A model generated the notes under the pieces. It did no database searches, was not told the origin of the DNA, and saw nothing but the letters and a program-made list of their open reading frames with translations. From Paracamarosporium sp. OC-R06-R3 (Eukaryota; Ascomycota; Dothideomycetes; Pleosporales; Didymosphaeriaceae), in the NCBI GenBank assembly GCA_019828545.1, contig JACVRA010000160.1:174425-238424 (forward strand): 64,000 bases of DNA. Direction: 5' to 3'. The position numbers and the translations under genes were made by a program. Shown piece after piece: positions 53,467 to 61,502 of this stretch (its first letter is position 1; each line of letters starts with the position of its first letter).

Positions 53467-54375
53467 CTATATACCTTCGCAACTAGACAGTACTTCAAAC
53501 TCCTTTGGCATCTCACTTCCATTGACCCAGGCTCTCACGCCTTGGGCGAATAACTCGGGAAATTGCAGGTCCCAGAGATGAACCGCGTCTCTCACCACAA
53601 ATGCTTTGCACGATGGATTCTTGCTACTGAGCACCCTTCCAGCTTCCTTCGTGTCCCTCACACTATCCCGCTTCCCGCCCGCCACGATAGCGATCCTCAC
53701 GCCGTCAATCTTGGAAAGATCCTCCAATCCCACTGCGTGCGCGGCAGTGTATCCTGCCGTTAGCAGTGCCATAGATTGATTCTTTCGAAACTCCTCCCTG
53801 AGGCCTGGAAGCGGCTCTACACCGATGGGTAACCAGAACATCGAATCAGTGGCTAGTCTGCTTAACACAATGCCGGCCCCACTTAACAGACGGGGCTGGG
53901 ACATGATCCATCGTCTAAGCCCGCTATATGGCGCACACCCGGTGCAAAACAGACTGAGCACCAGCTCCGGGTACTTTCGCGCAAATTCTAAACCTACGAA
54001 ACCGCCCAGTGACATACCAACAACGTGCGCTCTGCCTCCAGCGACTTCAGTTGAGATAAGATGGAAGAGCGCATTGGCAGCGTTTTCGAGGGTTAAGGGA
54101 AGGACCTCCTTAGACCCTGAGTGCCCCGGTAGGTCGACGAGGATCATTTCGTAGTCTTTGGTAAGAAAGGGGGTGATGCGGGAGAATTCCATATGGCAGG
54201 TTTCGAGGCCATGGAGGAAGACGATGGGCTCGTTAGAGGAAGCACTGCCGTTGGGGTGTGGCGGGGGGGAAAGACGGATGTAGGAGAGTTCTAGATTTGA
54301 CTGCTTGGTGCTGGGCTCTTGCGAAGCCATTGCTCTGTTTCTGGGGATGGACCGAGCACGAGTGACAACCGGCAT
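53467..54375 (-). CDS. Alpha/beta hydrolase, second copy of the fold
   Basis: This single-exon gene encodes 302 residues. Motifs: PIVFLHGLETCHMEF (oxyanion loop), MILVDLPGHSGS, the nucleophile GMSLGG and a C-terminal His in VVRDAVHLWDLQFPELF, with an Asp upstream (GGKRDSVRDT). It resembles the MhpC/3-oxoadipate-enol-lactonase-like fold group, but the substrate cannot be named. A second ATG 15 codons in (54330) would remove a basic start (RARSIPRNRA) that could be a weak mitochondrial signal. It is not a recent duplicate of the neighbouring hydrolase; the sequences differ widely. Confidence 0.83.
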   Translation of the reverse strand: MPVVTRARSIPRNRAMASQEPSTKQSNLELSYIRLSPPPHPNGSASSNEPIVFLHGLETCHMEFSRITPFLTKDYEMILVDLPGHSGSKEVLPLTLENAANALFHLISTEVAGGRAHVVGMSLGGFVGLEFARKYPELVLSLFCTGCAPYSGLRRWIMSQPRLLSGAGIVLSRLATDSMFWLPIGVEPLPGLREEFRKNQSMALLTAGYTAAHAVGLEDLSKIDGVRIAIVAGGKRDSVRDTKEAGRVLSSKNPSCKAFVVRDAVHLWDLQFPELFAQGVRAWVNGSEMPKEFEVLSSCEGI

Positions 54376-55291
54376 GAGATAGCTGCCGAGAAGGAACGCT
54401 TATGCCGTAGTGTGCTGAAAATAGTCATCACCTAACCTTTTCTAGACGGGCGCTTCGACCTAGTCAGACATAGTGTAAAATCCACTTGTAAGGGCACACT
54501 AGGCAGGTTTCTAGGTTCTTGGACCATGAAATGATGTAAAATCTATGACCTAAGTTTCCTAGTTACAGTCCCTCTACGGATGGCAGAATAGGGAAATTTT
54601 GTTCTCACGGTGATTTCGCTTAGTTAGGTTCGATTATCGATGCAGATTTGGTCGATCCATGACCAGCCTTGAGTTCTATTTCGTAGGATCTCTAAGAGCT
54701 GGTATAGGTTTCTACCAACCGCCATCTCTTGACCGGCAATTCGTAACGTGCAGCCATTAATGTTTTCACCCCAGGTGTATGAGCCTCATATTCAGGTCTT
54801 ACAACTCTTTGCGCGTCGGGAATGTGCACTGTTCCTTATCCCTTTCTAAGCTGCCTGCTGTCTCCCTCTAACCATCTACTTCCCATTCATTCTCCGTCTG
54901 TTATCTCTCCACTGAAGAACATCAAAGCCAAAGACGTTCCCACCCCAGAACTTCTGGCGTAGGTGGAGAAGGCGGTCCTCCAGTCGTGGGCGTGCAACAT
55001 TACGGCATAGTGGACAAATGTAGGTGGAGTCGTGTGTTGCTAACGACGTCTTATCCTCGACCTAGCCACACAATCATCGTGCATAGAAATACCCGTGCTC
55101 TCTCTATATACACAGTCTGCAAAACCCACGCCAAGCCATGCAGATCCCGTAGATGCCATTATACATACACCCTAACATGCCGTTCGTTTCGTGACTCATG
55201 TACATTCCTTCTCGCATCCGCATCCGCGTTTCCCGCCGGTAGATGGGGCGATACTGCCAGATTAGGTAAACGGAAATATGGATGGATAGCG
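54376..55291. other. Intergenic region
   Basis: 0.9 kb between the hydrolase start codon and the stop of the membrane-protein gene, both on the reverse strand. No gene is recognised. Confidence 0.6.
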
Positions 55292-56675
55292 TTATTGTGC
55301 GGGTGGAGTCCCGCGGTTTTGGTCCTGGTGGTGGCCGGACTGGAAGCGCTGGGAGGAGCTGCCTATGGAGGCCCGTCGGCTGCGTGGACTGCGTGGGCCG
55401 GCGTGCTGCGCTCCGTTCTGCTGGTTCTGTTGCAGGTTCAGGGCTGGGCGGTTCCTGTTTTGTTGATGCTGTTGTTGTAGTTGGGCTTGGGCGTGTTGGT
55501 GTCCCTGCGCGAGTGGATGTCTCTGTGCAGGTGGATGGCCTTGCTCTGGTCTACCTCGCCCATCTACATGGCCTGACCTTGTACTGCGTGGATCGGCGCC
55601 CTGGCCGCCGGAGTGCTGCGATGGGCCTTCCGCGTGCGGGCGACCCTGCGTATTTGCACCGCCCTGCGCCTCTTGGTCTCGCGCCTGCGGACGGTTTCCC
55701 AAGGGACGCTATTGCCTTGTCAGTTGCGGTTCTCGTGAGGGGCATAGAGGGGCGTACAGATGATTGCTCTGGCTCAGTTCTCCGTATAAACAAGAGTGCG
55801 AGCGCTTCGGCCGCCATGCCTGGTAGTGGGTTTTCCGGCGGTCTTCGCCTTCTGGGCTGAGTGGCTCTCATGACGGAGCGTATGCTCTGGGTATCATCGG
55901 GTTGTCTGATTGCTGGAAATAAAGGAGGTTCATATACATAAATAGGGTCTTGCTGTGCTGGAGCGGGTGGCACCGGGGCGTGTGGCTCTTCCGGCGCTGG
56001 AGCAGGAAGCTCCTGAGGTCCTGGAGGAGAAGGCTCGTTAGGTCCTGGAGTAGGGGGCTCGTCAGGTCCTGGAGCAGGGGGCTCATCAGGTCCTGGTGCA
56101 GGGGGCTCGTCAGGTCCTGGGGCGGGAGGTTCTTCAGGTTCTGAAGTGCGCTCTGCTCCGCCACTTGGGCGCAAAGGCCTATCTGGATTCGGATTCGAAA
56201 GGCGGTCTGCGCTTGTACTGGAACCGTCACTCTGGCCTCCATGGCTTGAAACATCATCTGGATTCGTATCTGAAAGCTTTTCGGAACCCCCCTCTGGATA
56301 TGGTCTACCACCACCCGGCCTTCTCGTGGGTTTCGACGATGTTGTTGACAGGGGCGGAGAGTTAGGATGACGTCTCGTTCTACAACAGCAGCAGACCATA
56401 AGGAGTGCTATGCATGCCACACAGGTGCCAATAACAGCTCCAAGCTTGTCGGCGAACGCTAAACCTTCGGTTCTAGGTGTCGCTGGAGATTGTGTTGTCT
56501 GACCAGCGAACGATGAAGTCGCGAACGAAGCAGGGTCAAAGCTTGCAGAACGCAGGCGTGTTTGCCAGTAGTCGTTACCATGCAAAGAGTTGAGGCTCTG
56601 TGAGATGAAGGCCGTTGTTGACGGGATGCCGCGGTCTGCTTGATGGCCATGGGTGTTTATTGGCACCGCCGACAT
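55292..56675 (-). CDS. Single-pass membrane protein with proline-rich cytoplasmic tail
   Basis: Two exons (56675-55758 and 55708-55292) give 444 residues. The 49-nt intron has a GTACGC donor, AACTGAC branch and AATAG acceptor. Without splicing the frame runs on into an Arg/Gly-rich terminus; with it the C-terminus becomes Gln/His-rich, which is more protein-like. Residues 1-75 are Ser/Thr-rich. Residues about 77-98 are one hydrophobic helix (LGAVIGTCVACIALLMVCCCC) ending in four cysteines, possible palmitoylation sites. The tail contains six or seven PGPDEPPA-type octapeptides encoded by a 24-bp minisatellite. No family is recognised. The start lies 400 bases head-to-head from the subtilase gene, so the two may be coexpressed. 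Confidence 0.65.
55990..56135. repeat. 24-bp minisatellite in coding sequence
   Basis: About six tandem 24-base units, each starting GGTCCTGG on the forward strand, encode the PGPDEPPA repeats of the membrane protein on the reverse strand. Units differ by few bases and preserve the frame, so copy number can change without frameshift. Confidence 0.85.
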
Positions 56676-57075
56676 TTGACAGGACGACCTCGCCCCGCCG
56701 ATGCAAGAGCAGGTTTCGCGACATGAAAAGAAAGTTGGGGCTTCCGACCTCGTCAGGTAAAACTATCCATTTGGTATTACCGGGCTATACACAAATATGA
56801 GCTCGTCGTTATGGCAACCTGGACCAGGCTGAGAGGCGACGCCATGGCGGCAAAGCTGCAGGTGGCTTCGAGGGGCATGATACGAGCCTTTTCGAAAAGC
56901 CCTCAGCCGCACCTGCCGTCAGCACAGCCTTGCGGCTCTATTAATCATCCCATCTATCGTTACCACAACCACCTTCTGGGCATCTTGCTTGATGAGAATC
57001 CGCCATCCGTAGGCGCTCAAGGATCGAATGCTGTTTTGACGACACTGTTGCTGTTGGTGTCCTTGCACGCCGCGA
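56676..57075. promoter_or_regulatory. Divergent promoter of membrane protein and subtilase genes
   Basis: A 400-base region between two head-to-head start codons. It is open in a forward frame that shows no protein resemblance. I see no TATA box or repeated operator. Confidence 0.45.
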
Positions 57076-60000
57076 ATGGACGGCCAATTACCCCTCCGCA
57101 CGCTAAGCAGGGCACAGAAAGAGCAGGCTAGAAAAGCGGGCGACCACAAAACAAATGCAAATTATGCAGAAGCCATCAAGGAGTACAACAAACTCATTGA
57201 TGCGCTGTCATCCGAAGCCCAGAAGGGTCCGGAACGCCATATCGACATCCTGGGCCTACGATGCCACAATGGCAGCTGTCTATGTGAGCCAAAACGATTG
57301 CAAACCGAAGATGAAGCATCCGAGGCGGAAGCATATGTTAGAGCAACACTGGTGGAGTGGGAGAAAGCTGAAGGAGAGCATTGCGCTAAGGGCATCGCGT
57401 TTACCAAAGCTGAACTAGGCAAGTTTCTGGTCTGGCAGGCCGAACAAAACGAAGATAAGGAGGACGAATTCTTTGATAGCAAGGGTGAAGAAGCTCTTTG
57501 CTATCTGGAAGAGGCCTGGGAATTCTACAGATCCACAACTGGTTCACCGGACGACAACCTACAGGCGGAGTCGATACTCTTGAGCCTGTCGAAGGCCGCC
57601 TCGATACTGGAATTCTACGAGAAGCTAGAAAACTTTAGTCGGAAAGGTCTTGAAAGATATGGGGATCTTTCGAAAAATGCCCCATATGCAAGGAAACTTG
57701 ACGTCCTCCTACTCAAGCTCAATTTAGCCACGTCTCTCCTCGAACAGCTCAATTTCCAGGGGGCAAAGAAGTTGTATCTAGATCTTGTGTCTTGGTTTGA
57801 CCAATACGCTATAGATGATTCTATGGGGTTGCAATATTGCAAAAAAAGTGTTGAAATTTGCGACCAAAGGATTCAGCAAGAGGAAAATTCCTATGCACGA
57901 GTGGAAGAAGTAGAAGTGAGGGTGCTCGACGTTCGCAAACGATGGAGAATAGCCAGAATGGCTGTCCAATTTGCCGCGAGGCTAGTAGTTGCCAGGAGAA
58001 GGAGCAGGCCACACGGAAGTAATTGGCGTATCGTATACTGCGCTGCGATATTTATAGTACGGCACCGAAGGCTCAAACGATCTCGGACCCGGCGGAGATG
58101 GAAAAGAGCCATAGGCGCTAGTGGAGTTGCCGCGAGGCTAGTGGTTGCGGCCAGAAAGAAGAAGCTCTGCCGGATTAATTGGCGCATTGTACACTATACT
58201 TCGATTTTCATTATATGGTTGAAAAGGCTAAGAAAGCGTCGGGTTCAACAGAGATGGAAAAGAGCCATAGGCGTTAGTGGAGTTGCCGCGAGGCTAGTGG
58301 TTGCGGCCAGAAAGAAAAGGCTCTGCCAAATCAACTGGCGTATCCTACACTACGCTTCGATATTCATTTTACGGTTCAAAAAGCTGAGAAAGCGACGGGT
58401 CCGTCAGAGATGGAAAAGAGTCACATTGGTTGTTGAAGCTGCCGCGAGGCTTGTAGTTGTCAGCACAAAGGGTCGGCAATGTCGCGACAATTGGGCCATC
58501 GTGTATTACGCTTCGATCTTCGTTGTCAGACTCCAGAAGCTGAGGAGAAAACGCCGAGTCCGGCATAGATGGAAAAGAGCTATATTGGTTGTTGACACTG
58601 CCACGAGGTTAGCAAAAACGGGAAGGAAGAGAAGAGAGAGACAAAAATGCCAAAACCACTGGTTTTTTATATATTGGGCTTCGGTCTTCGTTATACGGTT
58701 GCGAAGGCTGAGACGACGTCAGGCCCGGCAGAGATGGAAAGAGGCTGTGTCACGCATATGCATATCGATCAGGGTGCAAAGAACCATCAAAATCTTCCAT
58801 GAGCGCAGAGCAATTACTCAACAGAGATGGCGAAAAGTCCTGAGGTTTATGAAAATAATTGGTCGCTTCAAGCTCCGTCTCATTCGCAAAGTCCAGCAGC
58901 GTAAGAGAAGATGGACCCTCGTTCTCTCGTACGTTACGCAACGAGCACATGACAAAATACAGAATCAAGAACGACGCATAGGAATGTGGCGCGCGGCAAT
59001 AACTCACGCCAAACTTCGAATGAATTGGTTTCGTTTAGTCCATTATGCTGTTTGTGCCATAAGGTTGAGAATGCGAGTGAGGATCAAGCGACAAGAATCG
59101 ACAGATATACTGCATATGGTCGACCAAGTGCCGCCAATTAAACCCAGCCGCCAAATTTTCTTTGGTACCCGGTTTCCAAGAAAGTTTCAAAGCCTCAACG
59201 AAGAAGACAGAGAACAATCAGATATTTGGCTAGAATCATACGCAAATTTCTGCGAACATCTGGCCAAGTACAGCAAAGCAACAAGCACTACTAATCCAGT
59301 GAAGATCGCAATCATCGATAGTGGAATCGACGTCAACAACTCGTTCATCGCGCAAAGATGGCCCCCACTGGGTAGAACAAAGGAAGAATTGGATGAGATG
59401 GGAGAAAATGCGAAGGTAGCGCTACGCGAAAAGCTCATAGATAAGCGCTATAAAGATTTTCTTGATGGACCATCGGGACCGGGAGATAAGGACGGACATG
59501 GCACTCATATCGCGGGCCTGATTCTTCGATACGCGCCAAATGCCCATTTATATGTTGCACGTATTACCGAAACTACTTCGTCGTGTAGGAGCGATGTCAA
59601 GTTTGAACAGAGAATTGTTAAAGTGAGTAACTCTATATGCCGTTGAGTTTGAAATGGCTTCTAACGTGCTTTTGACAGGCCATTCAGCATGCACTGACGG
59701 TATGGAAAGTAGACATTATCTCGCTCTCGTTCGCAATGCGCGGAACAGGACTACAGCAGACGATCGACGATCTCATTGACCAGGCTCACGCCGGTAGAGT
59801 CGAGAGGAATCGTAGAATGAGGACCATAATACTCGCCGCCGCGTGCAACGAAGGGGGAAGAGAGCCCGTCCCCTACCCTGCAAATCACACTCGCGTCTTC
59901 AGCATTCGAGCTCTGACGGGATACAACAAGGATGCAGACTTCAGTGCCTTTACTGACAGTTGCGATGCTAATTTCTCCATCCTTGGCACCCACGTCTTGT

Positions 60001-60413
60001 CAACATGGCCGACGCAACTCTACAATCCCAAGACGATCGGCTCGCAGGATGTAGATGGTCCTGAAATCAGAGAATTTGGAGAAGAAGGTCGCAAGGTAAA
60101 GTGCGTAACGCACTACATGAATGGCACATCATTTGCGGCACCTCTAGCAGCTGCCCTACTCGCTAACGTTTTCGCGTATCACCGCGAACATAAGAAGGAC
60201 ATTGCACCAGATCCGTCTATGGAGGACGACTATACTTTCCAGCTGCAAAGATTTGAATCCGTTATGAAGCTTTTGAAGGCAATGAGCTTGATAGCCGGGG
60301 TGGTGCATATTCTTACCCCTTGGAGGCAGGGCAGCAACTTTATGATGACTCCACGGGCAAGGTCAATCCAAGAGCTTAATATTGCGATAAGGGTGGCACT
60401 TGAGGCTTCGTAG
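57076..60413 (+). CDS. TPR-like / Trp-Arg repeat / subtilisin-like (S8) protease, het-Q2-like
   Basis: Two exons (57076-59622 and 59679-60413) give 1093 residues. Residues about 1-280 are all-helical and TPR-like (YAEAIKEYNKLIDAL, ALCYLEEAWEFY, LLLKLNLATSLLEQ). Residues about 285-560 are a tandem array of 52-55-residue units with Trp at 290, 342, 394, 446, 499 and 554, each with a WKRAI...AARLV half and a NWRI.(H/Y)Y.SIFI half, very rich in Arg/Lys; less regular units continue to about 690. Residues about 740-1090 are a peptidase S8 domain with the complete triad: Asp748 in IIDSGID, His808 in DGHGTHIAG and Ser1000 in NGTSFAAP, plus the oxyanion Asn906. There is no signal peptide, so an intracellular signalling protease is more likely than a secreted one. 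It lies tail-to-tail with a gasdermin-like gene, the arrangement known for regulated cell-death pairs. Confidence 0.85.
57934..58740 (+). repeat. 156-bp tandem repeats encoding the Trp/Arg array
   Basis: Five head-to-tail units of about 156-165 bp begin at the Trp codons 57943, 58099, 58255, 58411 and 58570; a sixth diverged unit begins at 58735. The first 76 bases of the second and third units (58096-58171 and 58252-58327) differ at only three positions, while the rest of each unit has diverged more. That mosaic pattern suggests recent duplication or gene conversion within the array. Confidence 0.85.
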
Positions 60414-60608
60414 CGTTGCTATCAAGATAACATACCAAACTACAGTGATGTGGTAGAGCTAAATGATGAACCAACTCAAGCTTTAAGAAGTCATGTCACA
60501 CGATGTCATCTTAGAGTTCAACTTGATAGAGATAAAAGGAATGTGCAACCAAAACTGTAAAAGAATTTTCCAAAACGACCTAATAGTGTGGTCAACTAAA
60601 CGGCTCGC
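60414..60608. terminator. Shared 3' region of the protease and gasdermin-like genes
   Basis: A 195-base AT-rich interval between two convergent stop codons. Both transcripts must end here or overlap, so antisense overlap between the two messages is possible. No specific polyadenylation signal can be fixed from sequence alone. Confidence 0.4.
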
Positions 60609-61502
60609 CTAGTCTTCGGAGTACAAGAAAATGTCATCCGCATCGTCGGGCTGTCCTGAATCTGCCTCAATGAATCCATTCGGAACCATGTCACTTCCAA
60701 GATCTTGCTCCAAAGTGATCTTATCGATAGTTTGTGGTTCATCCTCATCCCGCGGCGGAGCCCCCTCCTCCTTTTCGCGCTTACCCCTAACGCCAGCGAG
60801 ATCGCCACCAACCTTCTCCTTCGCCTTTACACCCCCACCTAACCAACTAATATGGATCCTTTGCAAACGATATGCCCAGACAAAGTCCGAACAACTAGAG
60901 TATGCCTCGACCACTTCGCTCTTCTTCTCAAGCTCGGCAGTCGGCCCCACTCCCACCGGCGCGCCAGTGAAGGCTGTCAGATCGACCGTAACGTCGCCGC
61001 CTACACCTTTAGCGCGAGTCTTCTTCCTGAAAAACTTCCCTCCCCTCGCAATCTTGATCCCAGTGACCATGTACACCGCACCTGTCAGTTTTCGCTCATC
61101 CAACCACTTCTTAACTTCAGGAACCCGCAACACGCTATCCTCGATATACTTTTGCGTCGGTTCAATGAACTCGGTCTCCAAGCGATCAAAAATCCATTTC
61201 AGAACGTCGCCTTTCTCACGGCTCACTTCGCCACCTCCGCTGAGCGGACTGCCCAACTGTGCGAGAAATTGAGCTTGGACGCCCAAGCTCCCGGAAATGG
61301 CCTCATAGTGGTCAAAGGTGTAGTTTTCTCTCAACGCTTTGTGGGGATCTGGTAGTGGAGTCGTAGCTGTGTCGAGCGGAGGGCTGAGCGGGCGGTACGG
61401 GAGGCGGATGCTGGTGCAGATTTGCCCGAGCTTGATGTGCTGAGGGCCATAGTCCGAAGTTGGAAGGATGAAGTAGGTCTTGCGCTCGGGAAGTGCCGGC
61501 AT
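60609..61502 (-). CDS. Fungal gasdermin-like protein (het-Q1/rcd-1-like)
   Basis: This single-exon gene encodes 297 residues. I read it as a member of the fungal gasdermin-like family of pore-forming cell-death effectors (Podospora HET-Q1, Neurospora RCD-1). Supporting features are an N-terminal block with KLGQICTSIRLPYRPL after a short beta-rich start, a central VYMVTGIKIARGG segment and a SDFVWAYRLQRI segment near residue 210, the order I know from this family. No signal peptide or classical membrane helix is present, as expected for a protein that inserts beta-strands. The last 75 or so residues (60609-60838) are charged, mostly acidic and disordered, and could act as the inhibitory tail that a protease removes. 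The neighbouring subtilase is the obvious candidate protease. The assignment is from motif recognition and needs a profile or structure search; it could also be a related beta-rich fungal family. Confidence 0.62.
   Translation of the reverse strand: MPALPERKTYFILPTSDYGPQHIKLGQICTSIRLPYRPLSPPLDTATTPLPDPHKALRENYTFDHYEAISGSLGVQAQFLAQLGSPLSGGGEVSREKGDVLKWIFDRLETEFIEPTQKYIEDSVLRVPEVKKWLDERKLTGAVYMVTGIKIARGGKFFRKKTRAKGVGGDVTVDLTAFTGAPVGVGPTAELEKKSEVVEAYSSCSDFVWAYRLQRIHISWLGGGVKAKEKVGGDLAGVRGKREKEEGAPPRDEDEPQTIDKITLEQDLGSDMVPNGFIEADSGQPDDADDIFLYSED

Follow-up and report, generated by a model that had tools for sequence, protein, structure and literature searches.

A gasdermin gene adjoining a subtilisin-like protease with a basic tryptophan-repeat array in Paracamarosporium sp. 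OC-R06-R3: a candidate two-gene cell-death unit

Most fungal gasdermins are apparently regulated by cleavage, according to the parts of three papers covered here (PMC12881547, PMC10197012, PMC10989679), and approximately 80% of fungal gasdermin genes are reported to be clustered with protease genes, the figure given for S8 proteases being about 63% (PMC10197012). The same sources describe multidomain Q2L proteases, with repeats beside the protease part, as putative sensors (PMC10197012, PMC12881547). HET-Q1 is a 278-residue protein from which 40 residues (about 5 kDa) are removed, likely at F238, and HET-Q2 is a protein of 388 residues (PMC10989679, in the sections covered). The het-Q1 and het-Q2 genes are presented in the consulted part of PMC12881547 as idiomorphs at one locus. 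That part also reports that RCD-1, with 244-257 residues, acts without being cleaved, through pairing of two alleles, and names the trigger of the sensor proteases of fungal gasdermins as an open question.

The window analysed here, a stretch of 64,000 nucleotides from Paracamarosporium sp. OC-R06-R3, contains an S8 protease gene and a fungal gasdermin gene lying tail-to-tail, and the predicted distance of 195 bases between their stop codons was confirmed from the coordinates. The original prediction had taken the pair as a variant of the het-Q system, with het-Q1 and het-Q2 as known neighbours. What stands of this proposal is a fungal gasdermin beside an S8 protease with an unusual receptor region; the neighbour comparison had to be given up, het-Q1 and het-Q2 being idiomorphs according to the portion of PMC12881547 covered. 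The proper comparison is therefore with the wider Q2L/gasdermin two-gene clusters, and identity with the het-Q idiomorph locus itself is ruled out by the presence of both gasdermin and protease side by side. Q2L proteases are recognized by location (less than 10 kb from a fungal gasdermin gene) and by an S8 or CHAT domain with its catalytic residues; the window protease lies 195 bases from its gasdermin gene and carries an S8 domain with the catalytic residues in place. The parts of the protease gene are as follows.

57076..59622, +, exon 1 of the protease gene, 849 codons; N-terminal region, Trp/basic repeat array and first part of the S8 domain
59623..59678, +, intron, GT..AG, 56 bases, phase 0, read from the sequence
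59679..60413, +, exon 2 including the stop codon; remainder of the S8 domain
59317..59319, +, catalytic Asp748
59497..59499, +, catalytic His808
59847..59849, +, oxyanion-hole Asn906
60129..60131, +, catalytic Ser1000

Translation from the ATG at 57076 through a single intron gives a spliced product of 1,093 residues. This splice reading is supported by two relatives, P0021, whose frame stops just beyond the equivalent exon-1 end within a similar intron-like stretch, and P0022, which by eye is continuous across that point into exon-2-like residues. The complete S8 triad that had been predicted is correctly placed in the spliced protein, with D748 in DSGID, H808 in HGTH, S1000 in GTS and the oxyanion residue N906. 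Peptidase_S8 (PF00082) matches both exons, at 25.9 and 44.3 bits against a Pfam cut-off of 21.8, and is the one Pfam family above cut-off in either exon; residues 716-1093 have a net charge of 0. No NACHT or NB-ARC match was found with Pfam in either exon (E <= 1) or in the N-terminal region plus array (E <= 10), which rules out a NOD-like receptor (NLR) identity for the protease. The predicted lack of a signal peptide in the protease rests on a charged N terminus and a Kyte-Doolittle scan, the six best windows of which all fall within the C-terminal protease part. The protease gene is adjoined by a frame of up to 403 residues (55551-56762, -), the product of which is Cys-rich at its start, has one apparent membrane segment, ends in Pro-rich repeats (PAPGPDEPP) and by eye resembles a small surface protein or wall sensor. 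The window also holds a 310-residue frame (53467-54399, -) that by eye is alpha/beta hydrolase-like, with a GMSLGG motif.

The partner gene on the opposite strand comprises the following features.

60609..61502, -, fungal gasdermin gene, single open frame of 297 residues
60804..61502, -, pore-forming (gasdermin N-terminal) domain, about residues 1-233, from the RCD-1-2 structure alignment and sequence alignment
60612..60782, -, C-terminal tail of acidic character (residues 241-297, net charge -14), a candidate for the autoinhibitory part by analogy with HET-Q1

Assignment of the 297-residue protein to the fungal gasdermin family, as originally proposed, is supported by sequence homology and predicted fold. 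Residues 56-241 match RCD-1-1 (8jyz_A) at E = 3.6e-17, and the three motifs quoted earlier were found to begin at residues 24, 143 and 205. The predicted structure aligns to RCD-1-2 over ranges 7-232 and 9-232 (VIA-align), in agreement with a gasdermin N-terminal fold, in a model of moderate confidence (mean pLDDT 61) that does not resolve the tail. An acidic tail is found in all 19 aligned gasdermins (the window protein and 18 of its 20 relatives, two short ones being left out), with net charges of -9 to -27 compared with 0 to +8 for the remainder of the proteins, and by homology residues 241-297 would be the candidate part removed by cleavage. One further protein, P0007 from Ascochyta clinopodiicola, is annotated as a fusion of a piece of PF00300 (histidine phosphatase) with the gasdermin, which probably reflects neighbouring genes joined in one gene model.

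A search of the genome (43.1 Mb in 337 contigs), in which match counts are lower bounds, returned at least 33 S8 matches at at least 26 loci and, at E <= 1, at least six gasdermin-like matches, down to E = 4.7e-5 for the weakest. Every one of the six gasdermin-like matches found has an S8 match at 340-724 bases, five tail-to-tail and one on the same strand, and the probability of this by chance is about 7e-18, a rough figure that assumes independent placement and ignores gene density. The pairing of gasdermin and S8 genes is thus not a matter of chance, and a pair as such is to be expected from the published clustering frequency. When the exon-1 part of the window S8 domain was used as query, all four other genome matches at E <= 0.01 were at gasdermin-linked loci. 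In tblastn the whole domain scored 116, 115.5, 100, 78.6 and 43.9 bits at the five other linked loci, whereas at the unlinked loci tested (eight of 20) six scored 24.3-33.9 bits and two gave no hit; the lowest linked score, at L025, extends over 28 residues and hardly exceeds that of the best unlinked locus (33.9). None of seven CHAT-protease matches shares a contig with a gasdermin match. Pieces of four of the five other linked loci were scanned for domains (L025 was left out), and DUF7580 was found at three.

L023 1805-3967, L024 3004-4107, L026 2864-4333, -, DUF7580 at gasdermin-linked S8 loci; at L023 it shares a single frame with the S8 domain

One effector family thus seems to be served by more than one type of sensor, indeed by several, in this genome. 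The pair at L025 (6140-7900, C209 of the same genome) adjoins very AT-rich repeats, has in-frame stops in the first S8 part and matches the gasdermin query over residues 122-235 only, and may be decaying.

The original prediction also held that the receptor part of the protease was unusual, and this is borne out by a basic Trp-repeat array with no credible library match at the position where a sensor should be.

57076..57936, +, N-terminal region, residues 1-287; TPR-like at scores below library cut-offs only
57943..59070, +, basic Trp-repeat array, about residues 290-665
57943..58098, +, repeat unit 1, 52 residues
58099..58254, +, repeat unit 2, 52 residues; 86% DNA identity to unit 3
58255..58410, +, repeat unit 3, 52 residues
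58411..58569, +, repeat unit 4, 53 residues
58570..58734, +, repeat unit 5, 55 residues
58735..59070, +, further Trp-started segments, more diverged

Units of 156 bases were detected between about 57918 and 58740 by Tandem Repeats Finder and a repeat search. In the protein, the array opens with five units, each 52-55 residues long and divided into two halves that start with Trp; more diverged Trp-started segments come after them, and a few segments have an extra internal Trp. Lys and Arg make up 31% of residues 288-672 (385 residues, net charge +112), the basic residues recurring most strongly at 52 and 26 residues, and the N-terminal residues 1-287 have a net charge of -16. DNA identity is 62-67% for all unit pairs other than 2 and 3, and dN is below dS in all ten pairs, which were aligned in register and are not independent of one another. 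TPR models match the N-terminal region in the window, P0021 and P0022, all under cut-offs (E 0.12 to 1.8). At E <= 1, the genome yields no second match to the array or to residues 1-300. The array found nothing credible or above cut-off in Pfam, NCBIfam or PDB, and neither two single segments nor a half-unit profile matched PDB at E <= 10. The predicted structure of the receptor part is mostly drawn as helices at low confidence (mean pLDDT 40, with block means of 56-77 confined to residues 211-270) and is unusable for showing an array superstructure. Helix-like periodicity (100 degrees) of the segments is not significant, the window value being reached by 0.109 of shuffles and that of P0022 by 0.349; strand-like periodicity (160 degrees) is somewhat stronger in the window array (0.021 of shuffles), but not in P0022 (0.334), and is slightly favoured for the window array alone. 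As far as these libraries and searches tell, the array is an undescribed module in a Q2L role; the primary Q2L survey falls outside the literature covered, and first description is not claimed.

Two relatives with the array were found. P0021, which is 92% identical in the multiple alignment and 68% identical over 78% of the query in local alignment, has three units compared with five in the window, and its third unit resembles window unit 4 at its start and unit 5 thereafter, a composition such as unequal recombination would leave. P0021 is on four contigs among the matches listed and may come from a short-read assembly, where repeats can collapse, and the count of three may reflect such a collapse. 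The more distant P0022, a JGI protein, is 41% identical in the S8 part and has Trp-started segments mostly of 31-37 residues, with a net charge of +50 in 260 residues. All three proteins share the order of N terminus, basic Trp array and S8 domain, and the occurrence of this order in P0022 with different segments implies that the arrangement of parts predates these individual units. A difference in repeat number between close relatives is also reported for the WD repeats of fungal non-self receptors and would fit diversifying recognition; PMC2873952, as far as the portion covered shows, deals with repeat instability in such receptors from Podospora.

Homology, the predicted gasdermin fold and analogy with described systems together make it very probable that the two genes form a regulated cell-death unit of Q2L/gasdermin type. 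The gasdermin would remain inactive until the protease removed the acidic tail of about 57 residues, and the freed N-terminal domain would then insert into the plasma membrane and kill the cell. The protease may be its own sensor, with the TPR-like N terminus and the basic Trp array restraining the S8 domain or keeping it from its substrate until ligand binding or oligomerisation released it. That the adjacency is incidental, and the protease serves another role, is highly improbable: an S8 match lies less than 0.75 kb from each of the six gasdermin-like matches, the linked S8 domains outscore the eight unlinked loci tested, and clustering of gasdermin and protease genes is already published (in the part of PMC10197012 covered). 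It is also unlikely that the basic array acts not as a sensor but as a docking arm by which the acidic gasdermin tail is captured. Such an arm would account for the opposite charges (+112 in 385 residues compared with -14 in 57) but not for the pairing of acidic-tail gasdermins with DUF7580 elsewhere, since acidic tails occur generally, in all 19 gasdermins aligned, yet three other linked loci carry DUF7580 and the array has no second match in the genome; a docking arm alone would, moreover, still require a sensor.

The Trp/basic segments might instead be tandem sites for calmodulin or a calmodulin-like protein, such that calcium entering a damaged or fused cell would activate the protease and then the gasdermin pore. 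Four occurrences of Trp-anchored 1-5-8-14 spacing in the window array (shuffle mean 1.03, with 0.019 of shuffles reaching the count), four in P0021 (0.003) and two in P0022 (0.042) speak for this idea, as does enrichment in the window array of 1-14 spacing (0.027), any 1-5-8-14 spacing (0.022) and loose IQ motifs (three matches, 0.016). The spacing, with Arg at 13 and Leu or Phe at 14, resembles that of the peptide through which skeletal myosin light chain kinase binds calmodulin, and the segments, spaced at 25-31 residues, are reminiscent of IQ and Sfi1 arrays. On the other side, calmodulin classes 1-10, 1-5-10 and 1-8-14 are not enriched in any of the three arrays, loose IQ motifs are absent from P0021 and P0022, the repeats are not independent, helix periodicity is not significant, and the PDB searches with array segments and half-unit profile (E <= 10) gave no match. 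An IQ repeat protein is rejected, with no strict IQ motif in any of three arrays and no IQ or Sfi1 match in Pfam at E <= 10 for the N-terminal region plus array. The Sfi1 centrin-binding repeat follows the pattern A-x7-LL-x3-F/L-x2-W-K/R, and this identity is likewise rejected, as none of three arrays contains the pattern, loose form included. With several pattern and library tests failed, support for the calmodulin idea is weak and it is considered rather improbable.

Within the reading as a Q2L/gasdermin cell-death unit, the charge of the array suggests a polyanion or an acidic protein as ligand. A tentative extension, possible but doubtful, is that an unstable, strongly cationic Trp array fused to a gasdermin-activating protease represents a new class of cytosolic danger sensor that would respond to a polyanion, to an acidic partner or to calcium/calmodulin signalling, with repeat number setting how recognition specificity differs between strains. 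The pair itself is one more member of a common family, and the array is its unusual part: a distinctive candidate sensor module whose copy number differs between two close relatives and which is amenable to deletion and swap experiments on what is sensed.

Among known systems, het-Q1/het-Q2 of Podospora anserina resembles the window in combining a gasdermin with a subtilisin-like S8 protease, but differs in that these are idiomorphs, with a HET-Q2 of 388 residues in the sources as covered, whereas the window genes are side by side and the protease has 1,093 residues. RCD-1 of Neurospora crassa is the closest solved gasdermin by both sequence and fold; the match ends at residue 241 of the window gasdermin, leaving a 56-residue end without RCD-1 counterpart. 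Loci L023, L024 and L026 of the same genome share the gasdermin-linked S8 domain, but have DUF7580 in place of the TPR-like region and array. Like the window, the Q2L/gasdermin clusters, in the parts of the literature covered, have an S8 gene adjoining a gasdermin gene, a multidomain protease with repeats and a short C-terminal gasdermin tail; the repeats reported for them are ANK, TPR and WD40, whereas the window protease carries a basic Trp array ahead of its S8 domain.
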